A DNA stretch of 64,000 bases. Source: Maylandia zebra (lineage: Eukaryota > Chordata > Actinopteri > Cichliformes > Cichlidae). The notes beneath the pieces are model-generated. The model saw only the letters and a list, made by a program, of their open reading frames with translations. It searched no databases and had not been told where the DNA came from. A program made the position numbers and the translations under genes. Where the stretch lies: contig NC_135185.1 of NCBI RefSeq assembly GCF_041146795.1, positions 21,782,529 to 21,846,528 of the forward strand. Direction: 5' to 3'. Every line of letters begins with the position of its first letter. The stretch's first letter is position 1. Positions 20,711-34,008 of the stretch are shown in pieces.

Positions 20711-34008
<13,298 letters not shown>

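Follow-up and report, generated by a model that had tools for sequence, protein, structure and literature searches.

The window analysed here, a stretch of 64,000 nucleotides of Maylandia zebra, carries the coding part of asxl2 at 20711-34008 on the plus strand. Upstream of it lies a kinesin motor gene (14519-15916) and downstream an EF-hand_2 exon (within 42082-42684), both on the plus strand and both identified by Pfam matches, which name no gene; we take the first to be kif3c and the second dtnb. Under these assumed names, the neighbours would fit the surroundings of ASXL2 as given in one article, with KIF3C upstream and DTNB downstream (PMC11121404). At 8350-9603 on the plus strand, within the hadha intron 8012-10039, a transposase with a 417-codon open frame (8350-9600) showed DDE_1, Tc5-type HTH and Brinker-type DNA-binding matches and is flanked near 8110 and 9985 by inverted, terminal-looking repeats placed by eye. 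On the minus strand, a transposase at 46676-47635 is broken across two reading frames, with a DDE_3 match in 46676-47263 and a second piece read by eye. The former presumably belongs to an apparently intact pogo/Tigger-like transposon and the latter is presumably Tc1/mariner-like.

The asxl2 model comprises 13 coding exons of 57, 83, 3, 109, 142, 119, 121, 60, 161, 97, 106, 733 and 1791 nt, the 3-nt exon being included in the count and the final exon including the stop codon at 34006-34008. All 12 introns have GT-AG borders, and the frame is open for 1193 codons up to the stop. Exons 5 to 13 were delimited manually, guided by peptide anchors, the splice dinucleotides and the reading frame and, for exons 6 and 7, by human sequence in addition; the placement of exon 8 is the least certain of the model. 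Pfam matches above the cut-off were found for HARE-HTH and ASXH within residues 1-365 of the product and for PHD_3 in the last exon, so that all three domains of the set common to ASXL genes are present. The ASXH domain (residues 235-352) matched six distinct PDB sequences, three of ASXL1 and three of Asx, and is encoded by exons 9 to 11, a placement that holds only when the 3-nt exon is counted. Neither the -2 frameshift motif of ASXL2 (GGTCTCT) nor the ASXL1 motif (TCCTTTCGT) occurs on the plus strand of 31501-34000, in agreement with a report that teleosts have lost the transframe ORF of ASXL2 (PMC5644247). The features of the gene on which the following analysis bears are these:

20711-20767, plus strand: coding part of asxl2 exon 1, 57 nt, ATG at 20711
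22504-22586, plus strand: asxl2 exon 2, 83 nt, last bases AG, weak donor gtacac
22587-22791, plus strand: intron separating exon 2 from the microexon, 205 nt
22751-22791, plus strand: acceptor region of the microexon, pyrimidine-rich tract and AG, tract limits by eye
22792-22794, plus strand: asxl2 exon 3, the microexon AAG, coding positions 141-143
22795-22802, plus strand: donor of the microexon, AAG/gtaagaaa, strong
22795-23507, plus strand: intron separating the microexon from exon 4, 713 nt
23508-23616, plus strand: asxl2 exon 4, 109 nt, first base C
29101-29843, plus strand: exons 9 to 11 with their introns, encoding ASXH (exons 29101-29261, 29532-29628 and 29738-29843)
32218-34008, plus strand: coding part of exon 13, PHD_3 and stop

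The trinucleotide AAG at 22792-22794 is bordered by the acceptor tcatccag and the near-consensus donor gtaagaaa, in the context ...cactttcactattctcatccag/AAG/gtaagaaaagg..., the letters directly 5' of it being ...ctattctcatccag. A preliminary description of this DNA had proposed a 3-nt microexon of ASXL2 here, following exons of 57 and 83 nt and preceding one of 109 nt, with AAG at coding positions 141-143; these lengths and this position proved correct, and the microexon itself was borne out by its borders and phase, by the chance tests and by the alignment with ASXL1 given below. As also proposed, exon 2 ends in AG at 22586 and exon 4 begins with C at 23508. Inclusion thus gives AGA AGC, Arg-Ser, where the first base of AAG completes the codon of Arg47 and the other two open that of Ser48, whereas direct joining of exons 2 and 4 gives AGC, a single Ser, with the frame kept. 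The included product reads LKEI-R-S-G-T-S and the skipped one LKEI-S-G-T-S, in agreement with the earlier claim that skipping drops one Arg of the HARE-HTH domain, and in both forms the frame is open up to the stop.

The strength of these splice sites was scored with position weights taken from 27 introns of the window, picked by eye. The microexon donor scored above all 27 local donors in leave-one-out comparison and above 25 of 27 in-sample, that is, with the local sites scored by a matrix built from themselves. The acceptor exceeded 12 of 27 local acceptors in leave-one-out comparison and 3 of 27 in-sample. These ranks indicate a strong donor and an acceptor that is average at best; of the strong acceptor and consensus donor initially described, only the second was upheld. 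The donor of exon 2 (AAG/gtacac, 22584-22592) is weak, as just two of the 27 local donors scored lower in leave-one-out comparison and none in-sample.

With the Arg included, residues 1-85 of the product align with ASXL1 without gaps, the Arg-Ser-Gly among them, as had been anticipated for human ASXL proteins; the comparison made here was with ASXL1. In a search of the PDB, the Arg-containing form matched the chains 8h1t_N (123.8 bits) and 8svf_L (121.4 bits), which we take to be human ASXL1, and among the matches listed Arg-Ser stands at the equivalent place in both. The third match listed, a ribosomal protein at an E value of 1.4, was set aside as chance. This gap-free alignment is support for inclusion that does not depend on the splice signals. 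Concerning the wider domain family, the Pfam HARE-HTH profile gave 81.3 bits with the Arg, 82.3 bits without it, 82.1 bits with the Arg kept and the Ser removed, and 79.3 bits with Ala in place of the Arg; when the two halves of the domain were scanned separately, the profile stopped at position 34 and resumed at 36 or 37. Taken together, these scores and the half-domain scan place the Arg between the halves, where it appears to be a single residue more than the broad family has. By the Pfam scores, that family seems to be without it, and the same scores suggest that ASXL proteins have extended the HARE-HTH fold by this one residue. Hence the earlier claim on skipping needs the refinement that the Arg is not required by the domain family. 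The product of skipping would probably fold all the same, and since the residue is extra to the profile, the argument for inclusion is drawn from ASXL1 and the splice signals and not from any requirement of the fold. HARE-HTH is described as a putative DNA-binding domain that is absent from Drosophila Asx (PMC7660087).

An alternative that accepts the exon as real is that its inclusion is regulated, differing between tissues, such that HARE-HTH with or without Arg47 would act as a DNA-binding switch. The length of 3 nt, which keeps the frame either way, an acceptor of average strength at best, and a profile matched by both forms (82.3 and 81.3 bits) are compatible with such a switch, and a precedent exists in the 3-nt microexon of Drosophila troponin T, which is described as skipped in a larval muscle system (PMC8042270). 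Against it stand the strong donor and the listing of the 3-nt exon for human ASXL transcripts, which carries no remark in the legend concerned (PMC5644247). We also considered the sequence upstream of the exon. Neural microexons of the SRRM4 type have a TGC motif a short distance before their acceptor. The 205-nt intron has TGC only at -172, -104 and -91 from the acceptor and lacks it in the last 88 nt, so the neural SRRM4 signal is not evident here, which likewise speaks against regulation; with its nearest TGC at -91, the exon was not assigned to the SRRM4-type class. On balance we consider regulated inclusion unlikely, and a further step, in which toggling one Arg in HARE-HTH would alter DNA recognition by the BAP1-ASXL deubiquitinase, somewhat less likely still.

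The tests against chance concerned the whole window and the 921-nt intron between exons 2 and 4. Among the 448 AG-NNN-GT sites scored in the window (229 on the plus and 219 on the minus strand), the microexon has the top score, equalled by no other, and it is the single such site of the intron (22597-23499 scanned of 22587-23507). When the intron was dinucleotide-shuffled 2000 times, just 2 of the shuffles contained any AG-NNN-GT scoring as high; sites of that form encoding Arg-Ser appeared at any score in 125 shuffles. CCAGAAGGTAAG was found once in the window, both strands considered, and in none of 100 shuffles. A scan of the intron for AG..GT pairs enclosing 1-51 nt, with acceptors from about 22632 to 23457, yielded 131 pairs, among which the microexon ranked second overall (16.93 bits) and was the best in-frame pair by about 5.4 bits. 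The first rank fell to an out-of-frame pair of 43 nt at 22989-23031 (17.14 bits), possibly a decoy or a poison exon. That AAG is itself an intronic decoy, with exon 2 joined straight to exon 4, is scarcely credible: the frame is indeed open without it, HARE-HTH gains 1 bit in Pfam, and the 43-nt pair scores as high, but the residue is present in ASXL1, none of the 2000 shuffles matched both the score and the coding of Arg-Ser, and a human architecture with a 3-nt third exon is in print (PMC5644247). A chance origin was rejected on the shuffle test, the ranking of pairs and the single occurrence of CCAGAAGGTAAG.

Inclusion of the exon is most likely constitutive, and strong splice signals are associated with constitutive microexons in the MicroExonator article (PMC7821500). 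The average strength, at best, of the acceptor, the slightly higher score of the 43-nt pair, the frame kept on skipping and the slightly better Pfam fit of the skipped form weigh against this reading. Inclusion would rest on the strong donor, in whose 5' splice site AAG itself would supply positions -3 to -1. It inserts Arg47 between the halves of the HARE-HTH domain at the N terminus, the Ser48 codon being finished across the next junction. Two routes may be envisaged. In the first, the spliceosome would treat the acceptor tract and the donor as a compact exon island; in the second, the 205-nt intron would be removed first, whereby AAG would become positions -3 to -1 of a new, composite donor (AAG/GTAAGA) that is then used. 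Given the weak donor of exon 2, quick removal of the 205-nt intron is not expected, which slightly favours the island being defined first.

The value of the asxl2 microexon lies mainly in gene-model correction. If AAG is left out of a fish asxl2 annotation, the encoded protein lacks one residue of a predicted DNA-binding domain, and reading of the raw sequence can recover an exon of 3 nt that standard pipelines possibly miss. That an exon so small is hard for annotation pipelines, as the preliminary description held, fits the aligner figures given in the MicroExonator article, where sensitivity drops below 10 nt for STAR and below 8 nt for Hisat2 and Olego; of 402 microexons common to mouse and zebrafish, 16.1% are stated there to be absent from the zebrafish Ensembl annotation (PMC7821500).

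Very small exons of other genes offer parallels for the splicing of exon 3. The MPC1 exon described in PMC9929638 is also very small, is called constitutive and has a proximal acceptor region and a consensus donor, and its inclusion is attributed to exon definition across a compact island. It measures 4 nt and its skipping shifts the frame, whereas the asxl2 exon measures 3 nt and its skipping keeps the frame. For the constitutive exon of Arabidopsis APC11, similarly ultra-short, the authors favour intron definition with removal of the introns one after the other (PMC4674806); this case differs in that the exon has 1 nt and belongs to a plant gene whose protein is unrelated to ASXL2. The same article, of 2015, gives 6 nt for the smallest constitutive exon known before its own 1-nt case and 3 nt for the smallest alternative exon then known (PMC4674806), and the former minimum counts against a constitutive exon of 3 nt.

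The closest known counterpart is found in the ASXL genes themselves. In the literature library searched, we found no paper pairing ASXL2 or ASXL1 with the word microexon, which means only that the word is not applied to this exon in that library, and a look for splice-variant names near c.140-144 in one ASXL2 paper returned TET3 and EZH2 variants. Yet "exon 3 (3 nt)" is printed for human ASXL transcripts in the legend of Fig. 1 of PMC5644247, together with an architecture of 13 exons in which ASXH falls in exons 9-11. The exon of the window is likewise the third of 13, has 3 nt and precedes an ASXH domain encoded by exons 9-11, and its Arg-Ser-Gly is shared with ASXL1. The comparison with the human genes is one of architecture, and the flanking introns here measure 205 and 713 nt. 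We are confident that the AAG at 22792-22794 is orthologous to the 3-nt exon 3 of vertebrate ASXL genes, and it is most likely present in essentially all asxl2 mRNA. The feature is thus most likely the exon 3 already described for ASXL, now seen in a fish asxl2 and as real as it is ordinary.
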